Under the pieces are notes generated by a model. It did not search any database and was not told the DNA's origin. It was given only the letters and a program-made list of their open reading frames with translations. The position numbers and the translations under genes are program-made. From Chloroflexota bacterium (GTDB lineage: Bacteria; Chloroflexota; Ktedonobacteria; Ktedonobacterales; Ktedonobacteraceae), in NCBI GenBank assembly GCA_005881495.1, contig VBHI01000089.1, positions 1-13,154 on the forward strand: a stretch of 13,154 nucleotides of DNA. The letters are read 5' to 3'. This document shows, piece by piece, positions 3,035-13,154 of this stretch (position 1 is its first letter; each line of letters begins with the position of its first letter).

Positions 3035-3568
3035 ATGCTTGCACTGCTCCTGTTGCTTGCCGGCCTGGTGGGTGGATGCGCTACATCGTCACCGCCTGGC
3101 CCATCGCCAACGTCCACTCCCACACCAGGAATCAGAGGCATCTTCCATGAGTACGCACTCCCTCCATCAAAGCTTGCGCCAGGCGATATCGTAGCGGGCC
3201 CAGATGGCAATCTCTGGTTCACCGAAGTGGCTAACGGCCAGACTGGCAAGATCGGGCGCATCACCCTGACAGGTACCGTTAGTGAGTTCTCATTGCCCAC
3301 AGCAAATGCTCTCGCTCTCGATATCATAGCGGGCCCAGATGGCAATCTCTGGTTCAGCGAAGGAAACAAGATCGGGCGCATCACGCCATCGGGGAAAATC
3401 AGCGAGTTCTCGCTCGCTCCTCACACCTCTGCCCAGCGTATCGCAGCAGGGCCAGACGGCAACCTGTGGTTCACCGAAGAAGACTCGATCGGGCGTATGA
3501 CCCTTACAGGCCAGATCAGCGAGTTTCCACTCCCTCCTTCCCATAGAGGGCCTCTTGGCATCACAGCG
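3035..3568 (+). pseudogene. Virginiamycin B lyase-like beta-propeller lipoprotein, N-terminal half (split by transposon)
   Basis: This is the front half of an exported seven-bladed beta-propeller. It starts with a lipoprotein signal (LLLLLAGLVGGC lipobox, cysteine 16 from ATG 3035), then a proline/serine/threonine linker. Blades follow with the repeated motif (I)xAGPDGNLWF(T/S)E, then KIGRIT, then G.(I/V)SEF.LP. Three blades are complete and the fourth stops at GIT-A. Codons after 3568 come from the transposon end and give TGCATR before a stop at 3592. Blades 1 and 2 share a perfect 30-bp stretch (3192-3221 and 3327-3356), showing recent repeat duplication. The family includes streptogramin lyases, but most members have unknown function, so lyase activity is not claimed. 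The translated start may be 2987 (ATA). The second half is at 9549-10012. Confidence 0.85.
3564..3568 (+). repeat. Target-site duplication CAGCG, left copy
   Basis: CAGCG directly precedes the left terminal repeat and matches 9549-9553 after the right repeat. Keeping one copy restores the host frame. Confidence 0.9.
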
Positions 3569-3590
3569 CCCACGGGATGCGCAACGAGAT
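3569..3590 (+). repeat. Left terminal inverted repeat of the transposon
   Basis: The 22 bases beginning CCCACGGGATGCGCAAC are the exact reverse complement of 9527-9548. Weaker inverted similarity (AGCT, GAGCAA/CAAGCAA, AGAG) continues ~25 bp inward on both sides, as expected of transposase-binding ends. Confidence 0.92.
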
Positions 3591-3740
3591 AAGCTCAAGC
3601 AAAGAGGGAAGAAATAGATTGCTAGTGCTGCTATATCGTAAAAAGGCCCGAGGAAAGCGCCAATGATCGATGTGGCTCAATATGGAAAAGCAGCCAGGTC
3701 AGATGGTATCGAGGAAAGAAACAAAGCCTGCGGCGATCGG

Positions 3741-5794
3741 TTAGGCGGTAGCAAGCAACTCAAAGCCGAAGGCGTGGGCGAAGGTGGCGGTTAGACCGTG
3801 GAGCGTGACGAAAAGCCTGGGAGCGTCAGCTGGACGGGCATTACGGGCCAGCCGCTGCTCCCAGGAGAGACGCCAATGCGCGCGCTGGGCGCGAGTCAAG
3901 ACGTTCTCAGAGGGCGTGGTAACCGGCGCTTGCGTTGGCGCGGAGCCGCTGGTCAAGCCAACTGTTTCGCTGCGAACCACCTTGAGCCATGCTCGCCGGA
4001 TGCCACAGCGTGGCCAATCTTTCCAGAGCATCGGAGCAAGGGGCAGCGATGGAGGCTCGTTGATGTGGGTGGGAGAGCCATCCGAGGGGGTGGAGGAGGA
4101 GAGCGGCCAAATTACTGCACTCACCCGTCGCGGCTTAATCGTGGCGGTGCTTTCTTGACACTGCGCACGCAAAGGACAGGAGCGACAATGGCCGCTGCGC
4201 GCGGCATACAAGACTCGCAGCGAGCCATCGCGTTCGGGACGCCGTTCTTGGGGATACAACGGGCGGTCGGCAGGGCAACGCAGTGTCCCATCAGGTTGAA
4301 GGGGAAAGGCAGAGCCGGGAAAGCCGCCGGTAAACGAAGGCCGTGCCCATTGGGCAGGACCATACGTCACCGAAGATGGGTGCTTCGAGATGGGTGCAGG
4401 TGAGCCTCCCCGAGTAGGCGGGACTGCCGTAGCTTTGGCAAATTCCGTCGTGCGCAGTTCGGACGAGGAAAGCTTTTGCCCCAGTTCTAGGCGCAGGTTC
4501 CACACCCATTGCGCGAGGATTTGGCAAAATTCCTGGCCGCATGGCGTATGGGAGAACCACCGGTCCGCGTCCTGCTCCACATCTTCATCGGTGAGCACCG
4601 TTTCAAACGAGCCGCGATGCAGGTACAGATCAAGCACATCCGAGGAGGTAAAAGCCGGCGAGGGAAGGGCGCTGACAAACAGCTCATAGACAGTGCCATA
4701 ACGCTCGATACCAACTGGCGCAGGAGAAGAGGTGGCAGCATGGGTGGCCACTACCAAGCGCACGCTGGGTCCAGTTGGGGTCAAGGGAATGCTCTCGCAA
4801 TCATAGAGCGTGCGCGTCATCCCACTTTCCGGATGGGTACTCACCTGATCCGGTGCATGTGCAAGTGCCTGCTGGACGACCTCCAGATCCAGGAGACGGT
4901 AGTCACGACTGCGGGCAATCACGCCGAGACCGGCGGCCAGAACATCGAGGAGCGGAGCAGCGTCGCCATAGAGACCATCGAGACGAAGCAGCACGGAAGC
5001 AGGAGAAAGCCCCAGTTTGGTCGCATAGTCAGTGATCACCGCAATGGCCCGCAGCAGTTCGCCACGGTAATCCCCATTGCCCGGTCCCCCAAACGTACCC
5101 AGGAACTGGTGAGTATGTGTCTGGAGCAGGACTGTGCGGGTGCGCACGACTTCTCCCGTTTGCGCCCCTGATAGCCCGGCGCGCAGACAGCCTCGAAACG
5201 ACGATGGGGGGCGGGCAGCGATTCCAGCCGCGGGAGTGCCCGTTGACGGGCAGCGTGTCGCGTTCCATCCACATCGACCACCAGCCAGTGCTCTCCCATT
5301 CGGTCGAACACGCCGCCAAGGGAAGCAAATGGATTCCGGGCTAGCAGATCCTCTTGAAAGCGCGCACGCAGGGCTTCCACGGTGGGCTGATCGAGAGCGG
5401 CAAGAAAGCGGGAAAGGGTTGAGCGATGGGGCAAACGGTTTCGCCCAAACAAGGCCATGAACGACTCAGCAAACGGAGCAAGCCGCTCGTAAAAAGCCAG
5501 CAGGGTAGATTCGCCCGAAAGAATATAGCCGATCAGCACAGCAACAAAATCGATGAGGTCGTAGTGGCCAAAGCGGGCACGGGCGAAGCGCACCTGGCCC
5601 TGGATGGTTTTGAGCATACCCTCATGGGTGAGAACCTGAGCAAAGGCTGCCACTTCTCCCATCCAGGAAGGAATGGCGGGCTTCGATTCCGGAGTAATCT
5701 GGATCGTGACTGGAGAAAGTGTCATACGATGAGGGGGTCCTCCTTCTGCGGAAACAGATGCATTGCTCTCTTTTCCTTTCTTAGGAGACACCAC
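3741..5794 (-). pseudogene. DDE transposase of IS4-superfamily type, with a -1 frameshift
   Basis: This catalyses (or once did) movement of the element. The first part (5794 down to about 5157) includes VVDVDGT, the likely first catalytic Asp. The second part (open from about 5147 to 3741) contains LLRLDGLYGDAAPL (second Asp) and LYLHRGSFE (Y-x2-R-x3-E, catalytic Glu). It ends with a zinc-binding-like C-x2-C-x5-C stretch (HCRSCPLRAQC). The frames differ by -1. Adding one G to the GGG complementary to 5155-5157 joins GYQGRKR smoothly to GEVVRTRTVLLQ, giving ~680 residues. No standard slippery heptamer is present, so a real mutation or a sequencing error is likelier than programmed shifting. 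Start is uncertain: GTG 5794 has AGGAG too close, and ATG 5725 has AAGGAGG somewhat too far. This is larger than most IS4-type transposases. Confidence 0.82.
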
Positions 5795-5807
5795 TCCTCG
5801 CTCTTTT

Positions 5808-5868
5808 GCCAGGGAGAGCGGTCATATGAGCGGGAAAATCTCCAATATGACCGTTCTGTTTCCCTGGC
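5808..5868. promoter_or_regulatory. Nested double inverted repeat upstream of the transposase
   Basis: Outer arms are GCCAGGGA (5808-5815) and TCCCTGGC (5861-5868). Inner arms are CGGTCATAT (5819-5827) and ATATGACCG (5845-5853), with a 17-base centre. All arms match perfectly. The site lies just upstream of the transposase start and downstream of the cytochrome-like gene. It could be a terminator-like or protective hairpin limiting read-through from cargo into the transposase, an operator, or an internal transposase-binding site. Confidence 0.55.
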
Positions 5869-5959
5869 ACGTTGGTCGTGTTCTCCCCTGGCTCCGTTAG
5901 AAAAGAGATTGCCAACATGAAAGAACATCACCTCAAGGGTCCGAACTCTCATCCGCGAG

Positions 5960-6718
5960 TCACCGTCCATCTCCCACCAGTCTCCACGGTCTGGTGACCA
6001 GAAGCGCAAGGATGGCGGCAAGCAGGCCAACGATCATGGGAGCAGGGATCGTCTCGTTCGTCTGGCTCCAGACCATCCACGGAGCAGCACCGGGAAACAG
6101 GAGGATGGCGGCGACCACGCCGGCCAGTAGCGCGCCAAGGTTCATGCCGAGCCGGCGCCCACGTCCCGAGGCATTGTTCTTGTCGGATGGTTTGCTCCAG
6201 TCGTCCGTGACGAGACGTGGAACCCGCCGGATGTGGGCGAGGACATGGATGGCGATCAGAGGGAGCCAGACCAGGACACTGAACCCGTGCAGGGGGAGGA
6301 GTGGGCCAGCAAAACGCGGGCCGGTCACCATGAGTCCGATCCCGCTGCCGATGACCACGAGCGTCGTGGCGATGAGCAGCGGGGCCATCACCCGCAGCGC
6401 CAGGTGGGGTGGGCCTCTGCGTACAAAGGCGGGCGATCCAGTGTAGTAGCGTAAGAAGCGCCATCCGGTACTGCCGAGCTTGACGATGAGCGGGCCGGCC
6501 AGGAACACTCCGACAAAAACGTGTATGGACAGCAACGTACGCAGAATCGCTGCGCTTACAAGCTCCACCAGGATCAGCACGAGGAGCACTGCGCCAGCCA
6601 GCGCGGTCATTCGTTCGTTGCCGTCCACTGCGGATTGCCTGTCACCATTGTGTTCGGATGTATGGGCCTGTCCCGATGGGCGCACGGGGCTCTCGGCATC
6701 TCGCTCTCGTGATTTCAT
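5960..6718 (-). CDS. Cytochrome b561/DUF4405-like integral membrane protein (transposon cargo)
   Basis: This 252-residue membrane protein has about six hydrophobic helices (roughly 38-58, 63-83, 108-132, 144-165, 190-210 and 226-243) after a hydrophilic, charged N-terminus of ~35 residues. Histidines at helix edges (H66, H105, H144, H158, H162) include an H144-x13-H158 pair (LPLHGFSVLVWLPLIAIHV), the pattern of heme-binding helices in b-type cytochromes and DUF4405-like proteins. Heme binding is therefore plausible but unproven. The start is well supported by AGGAGGA six bases before ATG 6718. The gene begins 18 nt after the ABC permease stop and is the last gene of the exporter operon. A membrane redox protein joined to an ABC-2 exporter is unusual; it may be an accessory of the transporter or an independent passenger. 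Confidence 0.65.
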   Translation of the reverse strand: MKSRERDAESPVRPSGQAHTSEHNGDRQSAVDGNERMTALAGAVLLVLILVELVSAAILRTLLSIHVFVGVFLAGPLIVKLGSTGWRFLRYYTGSPAFVRRGPPHLALRVMAPLLIATTLVVIGSGIGLMVTGPRFAGPLLPLHGFSVLVWLPLIAIHVLAHIRRVPRLVTDDWSKPSDKNNASGRGRRLGMNLGALLAGVVAAILLFPGAAPWMVWSQTNETIPAPMIVGLLAAILALLVTRPWRLVGDGR

Positions 6719-6736
6719 GACGCTTCCTCCTGTCAG

Positions 6737-7540
6737 CTACGCGTTGATATCCTGACGCCGGAACACCACAGCGCTCACCACGACAAAGCCGACCATCCAC
6801 AGCAGCGCCACAAGAAGAGCAACAGGGTAGCCCTGGGGAGGAGTGGGACCGACAGTCGAGGGAAAGGTTGAGCCCGGCAGAAAGTTGAGGACACGGACAG
6901 GGAACCACCTGGACCCTTCCTGCCACACCATGGCAATCACTCCCTCCGGGACCAGAACGTAAGCCAGGGCAATCCCTACGGCGGCGCCCACCGAGCGCGT
7001 CAGCACGGCGATCAGCATTCCCAGCAGACTGATGCCGACGAGACAGAGCACCTCATTGCCGAAGAAAGAAAGAAAGGTGCGCATTCCTTCAGACGAGGTC
7101 CAGGCAGCCGTCGAGATCCCCTGAGCGTGCGCTGCGGCGAGGATGAGCGCGGCACTGATTGCCAGGGTCAGCGTGGCGGAAATGGAAACGCCGAGCAACA
7201 GCGCAAGCATCTTGCCTGAAAGCAGGCGCAGCCGTCTCGGCTCGCGCACCAGCAGGTTGCGCAGGGTTCCCTGGGACCATTCCGCAGCGATGTTCGAGGT
7301 GACCATGATGAGCGCGATCACAATGATCAGGGACCGCGCCTGGCCCACAACGGTGATCAGTCCTTGCGGCGTCGGGAACGCCTGAATGAGAGGGGTGAGT
7401 TCCGGTCCAGTGGCTCCGGATGTGATCTGATGGAAGGTCAGGTAGGCGATAAAAGCGGTGGCGAGGATCATCACTCCCGAACCTGCCAGGACGCTCCAGC
7501 GGCGGAACTTGAGCAACTCGCTGCGAAACGCACGCATCAT
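6737..7540 (-). CDS. ABC-2 family transporter permease (transposon cargo)
   Basis: This is the membrane half of an ABC exporter, 267 residues. It starts with a cytoplasmic amphipathic stretch (MMRAFRSELLKFRRW), followed by about six transmembrane segments (near 16-35, 62-81, 109-135, 160-181, 184-203 and 238-259). The motif EWSQGTLRNLLVREPRRLRLLSGK (86-110) after the second helix is typical of ABC-2 permeases of bacitracin, lantibiotic and multidrug exporters. ATG 7540 is chosen because its ATG overlaps the ATPase stop as ATGA, and AAAGGAG lies seven bases upstream. The open frame running to 7849 is only overlap with the ATPase gene. It pairs with the upstream ATPase by translational coupling. 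The substrate cannot be read from the sequence. Confidence 0.88.
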   Translation of the reverse strand: MMRAFRSELLKFRRWSVLAGSGVMILATAFIAYLTFHQITSGATGPELTPLIQAFPTPQGLITVVGQARSLIIVIALIMVTSNIAAEWSQGTLRNLLVREPRRLRLLSGKMLALLLGVSISATLTLAISAALILAAAHAQGISTAAWTSSEGMRTFLSFFGNEVLCLVGISLLGMLIAVLTRSVGAAVGIALAYVLVPEGVIAMVWQEGSRWFPVRVLNFLPGSTFPSTVGPTPPQGYPVALLVALLWMVGFVVVSAVVFRRQDINA

Positions 7541-8499
7541 TCGTGCTCTCCTTTCAATAGGGCCAGGAAACGCTCTTCGAGGCTGGCCTCTTTCGTGCGG
7601 ATGACGATGTGGGTGGCGCCAGCCTCCCTGGCCCGTCGATTCAGTTCGGAGGAAAAGTCCAGGGGACAGGCAATCCGCAGGGAGCCGTTGTCCGGCGTGA
7701 CCGTGTAGCCCGCTTCCCTGGCGATCCTGGCCACCAGATCGAGCTGCGTCGCCTCCTCGGCTTCGACCACCAGCTCGGAGCGACGGTCCAGGAGCTCGCG
7801 GGCGGGACCGCTGAACAGAGCCTTCCCTTGATGGAGCATCACCAACCAATCCGTGACCTGCTCCAACTCTCCCAGCAGGTGGCTGCTGAGGAAGACAGTC
7901 TTGCCCTGCTCGCGCAGGCGCCGCAGCAGGTCGCGCATCTGGATGATACCAAGTGGGTCGAGGCCATTGGCCGGTTCATCGAGGATCAGCAGGTCGGGAT
8001 CAGGGAGCAGCGCCATGGCCACCCCGAGCCGTTGCTTCATCCCTTGCGAATACGTTCTCACCGGGTCTTTTGCCCGGTCACTCAGCTCGACCAGTTCAAG
8101 CACCTGGCTCACGCGAGAGCGAGGGTAATCGCCAAGGTGTGCCAGCACCTCCAGATTCGTCCGTCCGCTCAGGCTGGGATAGAAAGTAGGCGCTTCGATG
8201 AGCGCCCCAACACATGGAAGGTAACGCTCTGGATGGGTCAGCAGCTGACCCAGAATCGTCGCGCTGCCTGCACTTGGTCGCACCAGTCCCAGCAGCAGGC
8301 GAATGGTGGTCGTCTTCCCGGCCCCATTGGGGCCAACAAAGCCAGCGATAGTCCCGGCAGGGATGCTCATGGTGAGGCCATCGACGGCTTTGCGCTGCCC
8401 GAAGTGCTTGCTCAAGCCATGGGTTTCGATCGCCGGAGTGCGGCCTGGCACGTTATCCGCCGCCAGTTCCGTCTGCGAGGGATCAGGGGAGGAGGTCAT
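7537..8499 (-). CDS. ABC transporter ATP-binding protein, BcrA-like (transposon cargo)
   Basis: This 320-residue protein is the ATPase half of an exporter of the BcrA/CcmA type. Walker A is GPNGAGKTT (56-64), the signature is YSQGMKQRL (150-158), Walker B is LLILDEP (170-176), and the H-loop histidine is 207 (LSSHLLGELEQ). All catalytic residues are intact. A C-terminal domain of ~80 residues (about 240-320), with a mixed alpha/beta pattern, is usual in this subgroup. ATG 8499 is preferred over GTG 8505 because GGAGG precedes it by five bases, while the GTG overlaps that site. The gene overlaps the permease by 4 bp. By family, such pairs export peptide antibiotics, other drugs or lipids, and the adjacent TetR regulator suggests drug-inducible expression. 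That role is inference only. Confidence 0.92.
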   Translation of the reverse strand: MTSSPDPSQTELAADNVPGRTPAIETHGLSKHFGQRKAVDGLTMSIPAGTIAGFVGPNGAGKTTTIRLLLGLVRPSAGSATILGQLLTHPERYLPCVGALIEAPTFYPSLSGRTNLEVLAHLGDYPRSRVSQVLELVELSDRAKDPVRTYSQGMKQRLGVAMALLPDPDLLILDEPANGLDPLGIIQMRDLLRRLREQGKTVFLSSHLLGELEQVTDWLVMLHQGKALFSGPARELLDRRSELVVEAEEATQLDLVARIAREAGYTVTPDNGSLRIACPLDFSSELNRRAREAGATHIVIRTKEASLEERFLALLKGEHE

Positions 8500-8655
8500 G
8501 AGCACCTCCGTGGGCGTGCCTCTTGTCTGGGAGGACCGATAGACATCGTTTCATCGCGTGAAGCCTTTCCTTTCTCACTCTTCTCACTAGATGCTCGCTC
8601 TCGCCGCGCGATCAGGGAATGAGCGCGACACGCGCGAGGTCTGGCAGATGTGGTT

Positions 8656-8687
8656 AAAAACCCTCGACGAAACCCGAAAGCCGAGAG
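8656..8687 (-). terminator. Candidate hairpin terminator or attenuator after the tetR gene
   Basis: On the minus strand CTCTCG and CGAGGG pair (six base pairs, one G-U) around a 15-base loop, followed directly by five T. It lies 37 bp past the tetR stop and 157 bp before the ATPase start. The stem is short, so this is tentative. Confidence 0.35.
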
Positions 8688-8688
8688 C

Positions 8689-8707
8689 TTACTAACCGTT
8701 TACTAAC
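8689..8707. promoter_or_regulatory. Helically phased TTACTAAC direct repeat, possible operator
   Basis: TTACTAAC occurs at 8689-8696 and again at 8700-8707, exactly 11 bp apart, in the 224-bp gap between tetR and the ABC operon. A third ACTAAC-like copy in inverse orientation (GTTAGT) lies at 8723-8728. It could be a binding site for a regulator of the ABC operon. It does not resemble the operator in front of tetR. Confidence 0.3.
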
Positions 8708-8723
8708 TTGTATCCACAAAGCG

Positions 8724-9335
8724 TTAGTGCTGATCTCGTAGTGCGGGAGACGCAATGCCGTCCAGCAGCACGGTGACCTGGTGCGACACCTGAATGCTCT
8801 TCGACTCCCTCAGCATCCCCATATAGAGACTGACCAGCTCCTCGACCGGAATATCTGTGCGAATCTCTCCGGCATCTTGCGCCGTTTGAAAGAGGCCCAT
8901 AACCAGCTGCTTGATCCGGTCTCGTAGGGACAAAATAATCCGCTGGTTTTCCGGGTCCTTGATGTGCTCCCTGGCATCTCGCAGCAGCAGCATAAAGTGC
9001 TCATCAATGGGAAGCGTCAGCAGCGAGGAGGTGAGCAGAGTCAAACGCTCTCGCAAACCCTGCGTGGTTCCCATGGCCTGCTCGATCCCTGCGACCCCTT
9101 CGTCCACAAACAAGGTCTGGATCATCTTCGTGAACAGATCTTCTTTGCCCTTGGGGAAATGGTAGTACAAAGCCGAGGGCATCACCTGCACCGCGTCGGC
9201 GATCTCTTTCATGGAAACGCCTTTGTAGCCCTTCGCAAAAAAGAGGTCCTTCGCGGCGGTGAGGATCTGCTGCCAGGTGCCTTGGTCGAGGGGGGAAGCT
9301 GGACCAACTCGTTGGTGCTTCATGGGCTGCGTCAT
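8724..9335 (-). CDS. TetR/AcrR family transcriptional regulator (transposon cargo)
   Basis: This 203-residue repressor has an N-terminal helix-turn-helix at about residues 24-68 (ILTAAKDLFFAKGYKGVSMKEIADA, then VMPSALYYHFPKGKEDLFTKMI), the hallmark of the family. A variable ligand-binding domain follows. Such proteins usually dissociate from DNA when they bind a small molecule exported or degraded by neighbouring gene products. ATG 9335 is preferred over longer in-frame starts to 9353 because GGAGGA lies six bases upstream. Its promoter and overlapping palindrome (9357-9385) suggest autoregulation. It is co-directional with the ABC operon 224 bp downstream, which is its natural target by context. 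Whether it controls that operon by read-through or by a separate operator cannot be decided here. Confidence 0.9.
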   Translation of the reverse strand: MTQPMKHQRVGPASPLDQGTWQQILTAAKDLFFAKGYKGVSMKEIADAVQVMPSALYYHFPKGKEDLFTKMIQTLFVDEGVAGIEQAMGTTQGLRERLTLLTSSLLTLPIDEHFMLLLRDAREHIKDPENQRIILSLRDRIKQLVMGLFQTAQDAGEIRTDIPVEELVSLYMGMLRESKSIQVSHQVTVLLDGIASPALRDQH

Positions 9336-9356
9336 GCGTTCTCCTCCCTTCACAAT

Positions 9357-9385
9357 TTACAGAACGTTCATTAAGTTCTCTGTAA
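9357..9385. promoter_or_regulatory. Palindromic operator in front of the tetR gene
   Basis: This is a 29-bp imperfect palindrome with perfect outer arms TTACAGA and TCTGTAA and a centre containing the self-complementary GAACGTTC. It lies between the -10 box and the ribosome binding site and covers the expected transcription start. This is the usual place for TetR-type autorepression. Confidence 0.6.
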
Positions 9386-9387
9386 CA

Positions 9388-9416
9388 AGCATAGCACAGG
9401 GGGGAAATCCTGTCAA
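9388..9416 (-). promoter_or_regulatory. Sigma-70-type promoter of the tetR gene
   Basis: On the minus strand TTGACA (9416-9411) is followed by a 17-base spacer and TATGCT (9393-9388). This is a consensus -35 with a good -10 at ideal spacing. The predicted start is near 9381, inside the palindromic operator, about 45 bases before the tetR ATG. Confidence 0.7.
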
Positions 9417-9526
9417 GAAGGAATCTCAACAGGCACCAGGCTTGTCCCCCTGCATGGTGCTCTCATCAGGGAAACAGGAATGGGATCAAAAACGTCCCGG
9501 CCTTCCTTACTCTTGCTCAGCTATGA

Positions 9527-9548
9527 ATCTCGTTGCGCATCCCGTGGG
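9527..9548 (-). repeat. Right terminal inverted repeat of the transposon
   Basis: This is the exact reverse complement of 3569-3590 (22/22). It lies immediately before the CAGCG duplication and the resumed beta-propeller reading frame. Confidence 0.92.
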
Positions 9549-9553
9549 CAGCG
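9549..9553 (+). repeat. Target-site duplication CAGCG, right copy
   Basis: This matches 3564-3568 on the other side of the element. Confidence 0.9.
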
Positions 9554-10012
9554 GGGCCAGATGGAAACCTTTGGTTCACCGAGCTTGGCTCCATTGGGCG
9601 CATCACCACCATGGGAAAGATCAGCGAGTTCTTCCTGCCGACGTCCGAAGAATTCCCTTTCAACATCACTGCAGGGCCAGATGGGAACGTCTGGTTCGCA
9701 GAAACCGGCACCAATAATGGCCCCAGCAAGCTTGGACGGGTCACTCCGCAAGGCCAGATCAGCGAGTTCACGCTACCCCATTATCTCCTGAACAGCATCA
9801 CAAGCGGACCGGATGGTGCTCTCTGGTTTACTGAAGGCCAATTCAATGGGACAGGCAAAATTGGACGCGTTACCACAGCAGGCCAGATCAGCGAGTTCCC
9901 GTTGCCAACACCTGGAAGCAGCCCTGGTAGTATCACGACTGGGCCGGATCGGGCCCTTTGGTTTACCGAAAGCCATTCCAATGGGACGGGCAAGATTGGA
10001 CAACTCGTCTGA
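9549..10012 (+). pseudogene. Virginiamycin B lyase-like beta-propeller protein, C-terminal half (split by transposon)
   Basis: This is the back half of the beta-propeller gene whose front lies at 3035-3568. It opens with the rest of blade four (GPDGNLWFTELGSIGRIT). Three more blades follow (AGPDGNVWFAE, SGPDGALWFTE and TGPDRALWFTE), ending KIGQLV and TGA. Front and back together give exactly seven blades and about 330 residues from ATG 3035, a complete propeller. The frame is intact from 9554, so nothing except the insertion separates the halves. An open frame from TTG 9533 exists but starts inside the transposon end, lacks a signal peptide and is not a likely functional start. The last blade has an altered PDR in place of PDG. 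Confidence 0.87.
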
Positions 10013-10160: not shown

Positions 10161-13052
10161 CTACTCCTCCTCAAACGCAAAACTCTCGAATTTGAGTGTG
10201 CGGCAGTTCTCCATTACTGTTTGTACGGTGGCTTCTGATATACCGTTTTGTAATTCTGCCTGTATTTCCAGCGTCACTTTTACTTTGACTCCGTAGAGGC
10301 TGGTCAGGTGTTTTACCACTTCTTCCATGATATTGCCGGCCTGGGTGCCCATCCTGCGCTCGTCAATGATCACTGAGCCGTAGAAGCGGTGATACTTTGG
10401 CCCTGGTTGCTGTGCTACCGGCGGGAAAACTGTTGGGACGGGTAATTCCTGTATATCGGCAATGGCGGACCCACCCCGCTCGATGACGGCAGATAGAGTA
10501 CGATCTGGACCTTGATATGTCGCCGTTGGTGCGATTTGTGCAGTTTGTGCGGTTTGTGGTAAAGGCGTCACGGGGGGCGCTTCAGCGGCGATTTGTGCCG
10601 CGGCGACTTCTGGTTTGACAAGAAGGGTTTCCGCGTTGATTATTACCTGCGCCCGTTTGCCTGCTTGAAGGCCGAAGTAGCGACTCTTTTCGGCGTCCCA
10701 GCCATCCGCGTAGGCGAAGGTTTCACGCTCCCATTGCGACGATTGAATTCCCTGGCCGATAGAGTCAATAAGGACATCGATGTTTTTGAAGCGCGGCAGG
10801 TAGACATACCTGGCGAAGTATTCGGCCAGTTCTTTGATGCCGATGTGGTTTCCCCGCCATAATGGGATACGATCTAGATCACGGCGCAGCAGCGTCCCGG
10901 AGTACTGGGTGATGAGCAGATCCTCGGTTTTGAGTCTGCGACTGGCGTTGATCGCCAGGGAATTTAGTGGCTGTGGTTGCAGCTTGAATTCTTGCAATTC
11001 GTCGGGCTGGCGGGGGTCCGGCTGTTCAGGAACAATCAACCAGGTGTAGGTTTCGGGGATGCGCGCATCGACAATCTTATTCGCCTCATCGCGCTTCGTT
11101 CTGGCCTGGTTGCGTTGGAACGCGTCCAGGTTCAGCGTTTCACTTTCCTGGTTAATGGAGTCCCATGCCAGGAACTGGCGCACACCTTGCTTGAGGTCTT
11201 CCAGGCGATTGCGGTCTGCCGCGAGAAAGACCAGGGTGTTGCGATAGCCACGGCGCGTGTTCCCTCGCAGGTTCATCATCTCGTTTGCCGCTTCCCTGGC
11301 CTTGCTGTTCTGGTCACGCAGCGCATGGGTGAGATGTGGTTTGAGGATAACCAGCCGAACAGACGTTTCGTCATCGGCGATATCTGCGCCAGAGGTGGGG
11401 CAGACATGTACCCTGGCAAAGTCTCCGCGATTGCTCTGCTCAACCCTCAGACGTTTCTCAACTTCTTCGAGCACTTTCTCTTCATCCAGTTGGGCGGCGC
11501 GATCCTGGGCGAGACGTGTAACACCTGGCTGGGTGGCATACCAGTAGCGCTGACCATCCAGGTAGAGGTGAGTGGACTGATCCGAGAGGCGGCGCAGCGC
11601 GTCGCCAAAGGTCGCAACGCTTTCTCCTGGTTGGACACAGCCCAGTTTGACCTGGCCCTCGGTCAAACCTTTATTGGGGTTGCGCGGATTGGGAGCCGAA
11701 CCGAGATAGATGGTACGGGTGACGCGCCGGCTGGCGGAGTAGCGGCCAAGGTTTGGGTTATCGCGGTCAATGCGCAGCGGAAGCGAATGCGGGCCATCGA
11801 CATCTTTCTCGATGACCGGCACCCAGTTGTCTTCCATATAATGGGTCAGTTCAAACTGGACTCTCGCTTCGTCTATTGGCACGCTCGCGGGTAAGATAAG
11901 CAAACTTGCATCTTGCCGTTCCCAAAGAGCATGAATCACGGCAGCCATCAAGCGTAGGACACCGCGCGTGCGCTGGAATTTCTCGATACTTGACCAGTCG
12001 TTGTAGAGCCGGTCAAAGAGTTCAGGATGAATCGGGTAGGCAGCCTTGATACGTCGTTCATGTTCTGCCTCCCGGCAATCAGCGGAGAACTCCTGTGGCT
12101 GGCTGCGATAGAGGTCCATGAAGGCTCTGGCCACGCTATCACGCGCGGTAAAGAGAGCCGGTTGGGTGATGGGCTGGAAGAGGCGCCGCCGCACGATCTC
12201 GAAACCCTCTTCTGTATCCGCGGGTCGCCACGGAGACTCGATGCGCCCGAAGATATTTTTCAGGCGCACAGCCGCTTCTCGTCCACCCTCGCCGCCGGTC
12301 TCGGCGTCAGAGGCGGGAATGGTGGCAACGACGAGCGTCTGCGGCGCCGCTTTGGCTGCCTCCGTCAGCGACTGGGCAAAGCTCAGGTTGGCGTCGAAAG
12401 AGCCGCCCGGCAGACCAGAAATGCCGTACAACTGGCGTGCATAGACCACCCATTCATCGATGAGGATGAGACAGGGGGCCGCCGCGGTGAAAAGTTCGCG
12501 CAAAATCTCAGAGCCGGGACTGACACCCTGACGATCAGCTTCAGCGACAAGCGCGAAGCCATCTCTGCCGAGCAGTTGCCAGGCCAACTCACCCCACAGC
12601 GTATTGACGACGCAGCCATCCGCTTTGATGCGTGGTTGGCCTGGGGAGAGTTCGTAGCCGACGAGGACGGCCCGCTGGGCCTGCGGAGGCCGGGGGATAC
12701 CGGCTTCATCCAGGACTGGCTCGATTCCCACCAGGTCAGTGATGGGTGCGCCGGAAAAGAGGTGATAGAGTGCAAGCAGTGAGTGCGTCTTCCCGCCGCC
12801 AAAATTGGTCTGGAGATCGACCACGGGATCAGCGCCGCTGCCATCCAGGCGTTGGAGCGCACCGCTCAAGAGTCTGCTCAAGCCATTCGTCAAGAACGTG
12901 CGTTGAAAGAAGTCGCGCGGGATACGGTACTCGTCGGAGCCTGCGCCCCTATGCACCTGTCCCAGGTCCGCGGCGAACTCGGCGAGTTGATAGCGGCCGT
13001 TGGCAACATCAAGCTGTGGTGTTACTATATCGCGCCATGGGCGCAGTCCCAT
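10161..13052 (-). CDS. DUF499/COG1483-type AAA+-like ATPase, possible phage-defence component
   Basis: This 963-residue (from ATG 13052) predicted ATPase has an N-terminus GLRPWRDIVTPQLDVANG matching the usual start of the DUF499 family. A Walker A-like loop is NFGGGKTHS (83-91), and Walker B is LILIDEW with D199/E200. A sensor-like TIPASDAE follows near residue 245. A low-complexity linker rich in A, T and Q (about 825-850) leads to a compact C-terminal domain (KYHRFYGSVIIDERRMG to the end). The family is often found beside DUF1156 DNA methyltransferases in defence islands; here its partners would be outside the window. The frame stays open without a stop from 13052 to the window edge and reads naturally (FEEQARNETRKVAVAPIEGKPA), so the true start may be upstream. 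A weak GAGGG precedes ATG 13052. It converges on the beta-propeller gene. Confidence 0.8.
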   Translation of the reverse strand: MGLRPWRDIVTPQLDVANGRYQLAEFAADLGQVHRGAGSDEYRIPRDFFQRTFLTNGLSRLLSGALQRLDGSGADPVVDLQTNFGGGKTHSLLALYHLFSGAPITDLVGIEPVLDEAGIPRPPQAQRAVLVGYELSPGQPRIKADGCVVNTLWGELAWQLLGRDGFALVAEADRQGVSPGSEILRELFTAAAPCLILIDEWVVYARQLYGISGLPGGSFDANLSFAQSLTEAAKAAPQTLVVATIPASDAETGGEGGREAAVRLKNIFGRIESPWRPADTEEGFEIVRRRLFQPITQPALFTARDSVARAFMDLYRSQPQEFSADCREAEHERRIKAAYPIHPELFDRLYNDWSSIEKFQRTRGVLRLMAAVIHALWERQDASLLILPASVPIDEARVQFELTHYMEDNWVPVIEKDVDGPHSLPLRIDRDNPNLGRYSASRRVTRTIYLGSAPNPRNPNKGLTEGQVKLGCVQPGESVATFGDALRRLSDQSTHLYLDGQRYWYATQPGVTRLAQDRAAQLDEEKVLEEVEKRLRVEQSNRGDFARVHVCPTSGADIADDETSVRLVILKPHLTHALRDQNSKAREAANEMMNLRGNTRRGYRNTLVFLAADRNRLEDLKQGVRQFLAWDSINQESETLNLDAFQRNQARTKRDEANKIVDARIPETYTWLIVPEQPDPRQPDELQEFKLQPQPLNSLAINASRRLKTEDLLITQYSGTLLRRDLDRIPLWRGNHIGIKELAEYFARYVYLPRFKNIDVLIDSIGQGIQSSQWERETFAYADGWDAEKSRYFGLQAGKRAQVIINAETLLVKPEVAAAQIAAEAPPVTPLPQTAQTAQIAPTATYQGPDRTLSAVIERGGSAIADIQELPVPTVFPPVAQQPGPKYHRFYGSVIIDERRMGTQAGNIMEEVVKHLTSLYGVKVKVTLEIQAELQNGISEATVQTVMENCRTLKFESFAFEEE

Positions 13053-13154
13053 TGCAGGTTTGCCCTCGATAGGAGCGACCGCGACTTTCCGCGTCTCATT
13101 GCGCGCCTGTTCCTCGAAGCGTATGCGGAGTAGTTCTTGTTTCTGTCGCTCGAC

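Follow-up and report, generated by a model that had tools for sequence, protein, structure and literature searches.

Introduction

Insertion sequences (ISs) that carry genes unrelated to transposition form an accepted category, the transporter ISs (tISs), in which, according to the passages available from PMC9330008 and PMC3129680, one transposase and one pair of ends enclose unrelated passenger genes. The 13,154-bp stretch of contig VBHI01000089.1 analysed here (the window), from a Chloroflexota bacterium of the Ktedonobacteraceae, holds a 5,980-bp element with this organisation, in which an exporter operon with a TetR-family repressor shares a single pair of ends with one transposase. We conclude, with a probability of roughly 0.8, that it is a tIS belonging to a large Ktedonobacteria family with a Tn5-like transposase and that its cargo was probably captured via a distant end. 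The difference from the described tISs is that here a single family does so repeatedly and with many cargos, about half of the scanned ones with a regulator.

Closest in arrangement are IS231 and MIC231 of the IS4 family in the Bacillus cereus group, where extra passenger DNA lies between the left repeat and the transposase and is termed modular; in the consulted part of the 2008 review of the IS4 group, such modular carriage is stated as not yet observed outside IS231 (PMC2266710). Transposase-dependent cassettes, the mobile insertion cassettes (MICs), also exist (PMC6542083, in part). The family described here differs from IS231/MIC231 in transposase group and host phylum, in having duplications of 4–5 bp and not ~10 bp, in placing cargo on either side of the transposase, and in drawing some of its ends from miniature elements. 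ISArsp12 (IS481) and ISPst2b (ISL3) resemble the window element in carrying a regulator (ArsR) and a permease, but they belong to unrelated IS families, their cargo is two genes, and the available passages of PMC6305408 contain no varied-cargo family. The same passages give the IS1380-family ISArsp10 a 5-bp duplication and ends starting with CC, as here, with a length of 1,667 bp against 2.2–2.4 kb for our bare elements (that is, those free of cargo). An IS1380-family IS without an ISfinder match is reported from Ktedonobacter racemifer in the part consulted of PMC9689679, with repeats of 36 bp against 22 bp here, and the genome paper of that organism, likewise consulted in part, counts 601 transposase genes (PMC3236041). 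In the open-access literature on Ktedonobacter and Ktedonobacteria ISs and transposons and on IS1380 passengers, as far as the accessible passages go, we found no description of cargo elements of this family.

Results

The element and the gene it interrupts

The element and its borders comprise the following features.

3569–9548, minus strand: whole element, 5,980 bp, bounded by perfect inverted repeats and a target-site duplication, host frame restored
3569–3590, plus strand: terminal inverted repeat, transposase-proximal (3') end; the same end, with at most 3 mismatches, in 26 of 47 class genomes
9527–9548, minus strand: terminal inverted repeat, cargo-side end; the 17 bp just inside it are similar to what seems a fossil inner end of the IS in locus L002
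3564–3568: target-site duplication CAGCG, left copy
9549–9553: target-site duplication CAGCG, right copy
3035–3568, plus strand: host Vgb-like β-propeller gene, 5' part (PF24684, E 1.6e-41)
9549–10012, plus strand: host Vgb-like β-propeller gene, 3' part (PF24684, E 3.9e-46), in the joined frame

The repeats at 3569–3590 and 9527–9548 match inverted at 22 of 22 bp (a repeat search gives 23, as the flanking bases chance to pair). Joining the flanks with a single copy of CAGCG produces an open 330-aa frame of the Vgb_lyase-type β-propeller (junction ...LGITAGPDGNLWFTELG... / ...GITAGPDGNLWFTE...); each half taken alone matches PF24684 (Vgb_lyase family), and unbroken homologous frames of 351–442 aa, stop to stop, are present in loci L139 and L140. 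These repeat positions and the joined frame bear out what an earlier note on this DNA had claimed for the 22-bp ends, the duplication and the repair of the host frame. A further copy of the end inside the element was sought and the best match is 14/22 (13/22 within 5700–6000), while 50 shuffled sequences give 13–16. The interior therefore resembles the end no better than shuffled sequence, so that there is no 2.3-kb IS with a second repeat of its own, including in the interval 5800–5960 that the note had singled out; its description of a single transposase and a single pair of ends bounding a regulated exporter cargo stands.

A family in the Ktedonobacteria

Close transposase relatives point to K. 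racemifer, Dictyobacter arantiisoli and a Ktedonobacteraceae metagenome-assembled genome. Among 47 genomes of the K. racemifer class, a transposase match (E ≤ 0.001) is found in 26 and the 22-bp end (at most 3 mismatches) also in 26, the reversed pattern having no match in any of the 47; K. racemifer alone has 107 such ends and 0 matches to the reversed pattern. The looser pattern used for placing ends gives 0–3 control matches per strand and genome. In the loci compared (numbered L001 onwards), 34 of 110 convergent end pairs are flanked by an exact 5-bp duplication, as against 1 of 1540 shifted controls, and these 34 are made up of 14 bare ISs of 2,182–2,348 bp and 20 others of 2,370–8,957 bp. 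Thirteen short end pairs (132–660 bp) were read, four with an exact duplication. The family includes bare ISs of 2.2–2.4 kb, which the note had proposed looking for, miniature elements of ~0.2 kb, elements with varied cargo, and cargo elements without a transposase. Bare ISs of 2,402 bp with ends identical to those of the window occur in L095, L096 and L097; none has an exact 5-bp duplication and two look to have one of 4 bp. At L070 (9201–13095) the family transposase is interrupted by a gene resembling, by eye, an integrase-core (IS21-like) transposase, the duplication ATGGG being intact.

Beyond these genomes, the PLSDB plasmids contain only 33% identical transposases, in four Leptolyngbya boryana records. 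In IMG/VR, neither an exact copy of the 22-bp end nor any relative of the membrane protein described below was found, and Rfam gives no match in the window at gathering scores.

Varied cargo and movement as a unit

Movement of an enlarged unit is shown by one genome, where three copies of 2,721 bp lie on three contigs with no differences among them, in unrelated flanks and with duplications TTAGA, ATTTA and a 4-bp GAAG. Their extra DNA is one 147-aa open reading frame (ORF) without a Pfam match, so the copies show an enlarged unit moving, not a known gene. Sister elements have ends and transposase in common and differ in cargo. The cargo of units across the family is listed here.

L001, exact duplication: MarR regulator, short-chain dehydrogenase, FMN reductase
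L048, exact duplication: PadR regulator and two ORFs without Pfam match
L061, exact duplication: TetR and AMP-binding enzyme
L088, exact duplication: MerR and dehydrogenase
L108, exact duplication: TetR and alpha/beta hydrolase; transposase broken up
L116, exact duplication: AraC, dehydrogenase, aldo-keto reductase; no transposase match inside the ends
L106, exact duplication: MFS and leucine-rich-repeat protein; transposase remnant
L109 (2983–5352), exact duplication: one 716-aa histidine kinase nearly filling the end pair; no transposase match
L057, exact duplication: PNPOx-like protein
L060, exact duplication: DinB-like protein
L049 and L051, exact duplication: ORFs without Pfam match
L087, duplication at 4 of 5 bases: LysR and NmrA
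L089, no exact duplication: sigma factor and MFS
L117, no exact duplication: XRE-type regulator and epimerase
L073, no exact duplication: TetR and metallo-hydrolase

Across the family, a variety of small gene sets has been acquired time and again, in many cases a regulator together with its partner genes. Recognisable cargo recurs across genomes in L069/L077, L039/L106 and L002/L021; an MFS exporter overlapping a leucine-rich-repeat gene is one cargo present in two genomes (L039 8254–8925, L106 2843–3508). A transcription regulator or sigma factor is present in 11 of the 22 cargo units scanned with Pfam, and phmmer adds an AraC-like one in L043. The scan took 40 ORFs from the 22 units, picked after the ORF letters had been seen, so that the choice was not blind; units with end pairs outside it include L053, L062, L069, L072, L074, L077, L086, L099, L101–L105, L112 and L115. 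Among cargo ORFs 14 of 67 are regulators, compared with 9 of 424 in the flanks, an enrichment that is suggestive only: the 12 query regulators were drawn from cargo, one L062 ORF was counted both as cargo and as flank, the MarR counts duplicate those of an earlier file, and the L001 MarR gene was missed by the ORF caller. The Pfam control on flank ORFs (100 of 399) lists just 25 of 149 families and hence gives no regulator total; as background, with no more than 150 candidates scored per genome, five genomes have at least 50, 109, 112, 115 and 150 TetR_N genes.

At L086 (4540–8532) an outer end pair with the duplication CCACG encloses, beside a bare IS, a 1,330-aa ORF that looks by eye like an NTPase with HEAT-like repeats.

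The exporter cargo and its resident counterparts

Within the window element the cargo and its control sites are arranged as follows.

5941–9422, minus strand: segment homologous to resident operons; upstream limit 9422 in L135–L137, downstream limit 5941 in L132
9388–9416, minus strand: tetR promoter-like site TTGACA-17-TATGCT, with similar sequence upstream of tetR in L135–L138
9357–9374, minus strand: operator-like site 1, 21 bp upstream of tetR, differing from the resident-operon palindrome at 4 positions
8724–9353, minus strand: TetR-family repressor (PF00440, E 5.8e-14)
8689–8706, minus strand: operator-like site 2, between tetR and the ATPase gene, 3 mismatches to the resident-operon palindrome
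7537–8505, minus strand: ABC transporter ATPase, DrrA/lantibiotic-protection type (PF00005, E 6.6e-27; TIGR03740 and TIGR01188 best, below their cut-offs)
6737–7540, minus strand: ABC-2 type permease (PF12730, E 1.7e-9)
5960–6718, minus strand: membrane protein with six segments and three invariant histidines, possibly b-type-cytochrome-like
5807–5869, minus strand: strong hairpin between cargo and transposase, at the position expected for the end of a bare IS (z −5.1; 0 of 200 shuffles as stable)

From the cargo end the genes run TetR, ABC ATPase, ABC-2 permease, membrane protein and transposase, all on the minus strand, as the note had it. Two of its labels need qualifying: the transposase is frameshifted (see below), and the cytochrome assignment comes from conserved histidines. 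No Pfam or NCBIfam model matches the membrane protein at E ≤ 1e-3; it has six hydrophobic segments, and all three of its membrane histidines are conserved without exception across the 109 aligned relatives. Because of these features, b-type cytochrome-like is a fair reading of the protein. The cargo as a whole probably serves TetR-repressed export of a small compound, or protection from it.

Relatives of the membrane protein are found in 7 of the 47 class genomes, with a best identity of 71%. The complete operon, in the same order, is present in four loci of three genomes (L135–L138), so the same operon occurs at other places in relatives; together with the uninterrupted β-propeller homologues, this disposes of the fixed location that the note had envisaged as a counter-case. 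No family end lies near the operon in L135 and L136 within the 16–17 kb read, and L138 has one weak family end, far away. Upstream, DNA homology to the window starts at 9422, just before the −35 box of tetR, in three of the loci (L135–L137) and at 9287 in the fourth (L138). Downstream it extends into the last gene in L135–L138; in L132, whose membrane-protein gene is separate from its ABC genes, it reaches 5941, some 20 bp beyond the last stop. All four resident operons have a palindrome of the TTACTGATCGTTTAGTAA type at two places, 22 bp upstream of tetR and ~130 bp upstream of the ATPase gene, and both sites are kept in the window with 4 and 3 mismatches, against a background of 0.054 per kb (at most 5 mismatches). 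Since the operon is resident in other Ktedonobacteria, control sites included, the window cargo appears from its sequence to be a complete self-regulated transcription unit, with a promoter, two putative TetR operators and four genes, captured with its own control.

The transposase

3741–5147, minus strand: transposase C-terminal ORF, 468 aa (homology search, 3003 proteins at E ≤ 0.001)
5036–5794, minus strand: transposase N-terminal ORF, frameshifted relative to the C-terminal ORF; homology in its frame stops near 5156
5722–5800, minus strand: transposase leader, which may fold over the ribosome-binding region (z −2.5); a similar leader is present in the bare ISs compared

The sole transposase of the element is broken by a frameshift, homology switching frame between 5156 and 5210. 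The search scored 7999 candidates, and the counts that follow are from the best 120 of the 3003 accepted. The motif at the place of the frameshift is uninterrupted in 110 of these relatives, so intact copies of the transposase exist, and 104 are at least 600 aa long. Four (P0037, P0039, P0075 and P0085) start exactly at the start of the second transposase ORF of the window; breakage near this spot is therefore recurrent.

The note had called the transposase IS4-superfamily-like, and at the level of the superfamily this is right. The closest solved fold to the predicted structure is that of Tn5/IS50, which was the top match although the alignments have only 12–16% identity; Tn5 itself is a composite transposon, which the element here is not. 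The match was obtained with a second model, which used 50 more diverse rows, the first having a confidence score (predicted local distance difference test) of 42 and not being used; by sequence, the PDB yields nothing at E ≤ 1 and two meaningless rows at E ≤ 5. In 50 rows, the tyrosine of Y368-(2)-R371-(3)-E375 is nearly invariant and the arginine and glutamate are invariant, while the final lysine of the YREK motif is replaced by an invariant D382. The IS4 family in the strict sense is defined, in the consulted part of PMC2266710, by YREK and a duplication of ~10 bp; the element lacks the final lysine and has 5 bp (4 bp in one of the three identical 2,721-bp copies), and so falls outside it. 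The same source gives 5–6 bp for the IS1634 family. The NCBIfam IS1380 equivalog NF033539 matches 26 of 26 transposases weakly, and P0002, with the best E-value, reaches 43.6 bits against a cut-off of 180, so that by this model the element does not fall in IS1380 either.

As to the kind of element, IS ends and a transposase with unrelated genes inside one end pair, and bare ISs sharing those ends, make it a tIS. It is not a MIC, as it keeps its (frameshifted) transposase; its relatives L116 and L109, which lack a transposase match, fit that description better. One transposase and no inner end exclude a composite transposon with two flanking IS copies, and the six element ORFs scanned with Pfam and NCBIfam include no resolvase/res or Tn3 transposase match, so that the Tn3 family is likewise rejected. 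The note's remark that passengers of this kind usually sit between two ISs or in Tn3/Tn7-type elements is therefore amended, single-transposase ISs with passengers being already known as tISs and IS231/MIC231.

Neighbouring sequence

Between a ferredoxin-type operon and the β-propeller gene, positions 2536–2775 contain a 78-nt tandem repeat in three copies with a CCCTGAGCG-AGCGAAGGGTCTGTC core. The product of 10161–13154 is a DUF499 protein; its match to a DUF499 model associated with anti-phage functions shows a relationship but, at 166 bits, falls well short of the 1200-bit cut-off.

Discussion

We consider capture through use of a distant end, repeated many times, the likeliest route by which these elements gained their cargo. 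The transposase would pair the far end of an IS with another family end beyond a neighbouring gene, bypassing its own near end; the partner would come from a miniature element or another IS copy, and the unused inner end would afterwards decay or be replaced. Apparent intermediates are found. In five units (L049, L057, L062, L086 and L002:14820-20729) an exact duplication flanks the outer end while the inner IS end is retained. Three of the outer ends tested, those of L049, L057 and L086, also resemble miniature elements past the 22-bp repeat (E 1e-10 to 1e-17), a match seen in 0 of 200 random stretches and in none of the other 21 units. L002:7709-11782 has a decayed inner end at the original place of the IS, whose inner 17 bp resemble the cargo-side end of the window element. 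Ahead of the transposase, the six bare ISs compared have a leader of ~110–150 bp, of which the window retains the inner part; at the expected IS end (~5840–5870) there is the strong hairpin and then cargo. In a phylogeny of 32 transposases, copies with cargo are scattered among bare ones, which forces at least 8 changes, and clustering of the cargo label is not significant (92 of 500 shuffles score as low); 7 of the 14 rows labelled bare (L041, L047, L058, L085 twice, L095 and L096) lack an exact 5-bp duplication.

Several observations weigh against this account. The 47 genomes contain no second copy of the exact 5,980-bp element, so that the note's proposal to look for the same cargo at other sites in the same element came to nothing, and an exact duplication is absent from 76 of the 110 end pairs. 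The CCACG of L086 is similar to the end sequence and could have arisen by chance. A good family end lies on one side only, 206 bp behind the resident operon of L137 (9455–9474), which leaves some doubt that all resident copies stand apart from the family, and at L132, a fifth homologous ABC pair, no operator-like site and no adjacent TetR were found. The outer end of the window does not match the miniature elements, like 21 of the 24 units tested (window included). As IS-end resemblance inside that outer end is limited to 17 bp, we infer the capture route for the window element itself from its relatives.

An unlikely but serious alternative is that cargo was inserted or recombined into an IS, in the interval from its 5' end to the transposase leader, with later exchange between elements by recombination as in IS231/MIC231, the ends always being the IS's own. 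The position of cargo between left end and transposase in the window, L001, L087, L088 and L089 would fit this, as would the resemblance of the outer end of the window to the fossil inner IS end of L002 and the fact that the window and L001 have only element positions 1–23 and 3842–5980 in common. Against it are the five units that retain an inner end while the exact duplication flanks the outer one, the three outer ends derived from miniature elements, and cargo on the opposite side of the transposase in L048, L049, L051 and L054. Slightly less probable again is a decayed composite transposon, in which the operon once lay between two full IS copies and one was deleted down to its outermost end. 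The IS-like subterminal stretch of the outer end and the closeness of family copies in some loci (L085, L093) speak for such a history; no transposase match exists between 9354 and 9526, however, and just 22 + 17 bp of the end remain. For the window element this history and capture via a distant end are not separable. The reading that the element is no unit at all, but an IS inserted beside a resident operon with a second repeat by chance, has nothing in its favour, and we regard it as practically excluded by the 22/22 outer repeat, the exact duplication, the exact host frame and the missing inner end, and by the occurrence, in another part of the family, of enlarged units that are identical from site to site; chance as the source of the repeat is ruled out by the K. 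racemifer control together with the perfect ends, duplication and host frame.

The split transposase might also be read as a recurrent, perhaps programmed frameshift that lowers transposase output and leaves the window copy autonomous. Frameshifting is used by other IS families, and the four relatives that begin exactly at the second ORF of the window would agree with it. We think it improbable, as the motif is uninterrupted in so many relatives, the bare multicopy ISs compared have one open transposase frame, and no slippery heptamer is seen by eye. Decay or a sequence error is, we think, likelier than recurrent slippage or programmed frameshifting, and the copy is probably not autonomous. 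With its transposase frameshifted, the window element would now probably be mobile only via the transposase of a relative; a sequence error, or read-through of the shift by programmed frameshifting, would alter this.

The interest of the element lies mainly in the breadth of its family and in the visible steps of cargo capture. A separate Tn5-like family carries modular passengers many times over, in a class with very large genomes, and what moves is a whole regulatory circuit, beyond genes alone. As apparent capture intermediates are present and the source operon is still resident in relatives, the conversion of an IS into a unit transposon can be tested by comparison and a simple assay. We suggest, tentatively and at rather less than even odds, that the Ktedonobacteria maintain an open gene-capture platform built on one transposase family: miniature and dead copies would scatter surplus ends, whatever transcription unit came to lie between two of them would turn into a mobile cassette, and complete regulator-plus-effector units would persist as cargo. 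If this is true, these bacteria would possess, with no integrase involved, a store of self-regulated stress genes comparable to that of an integron.

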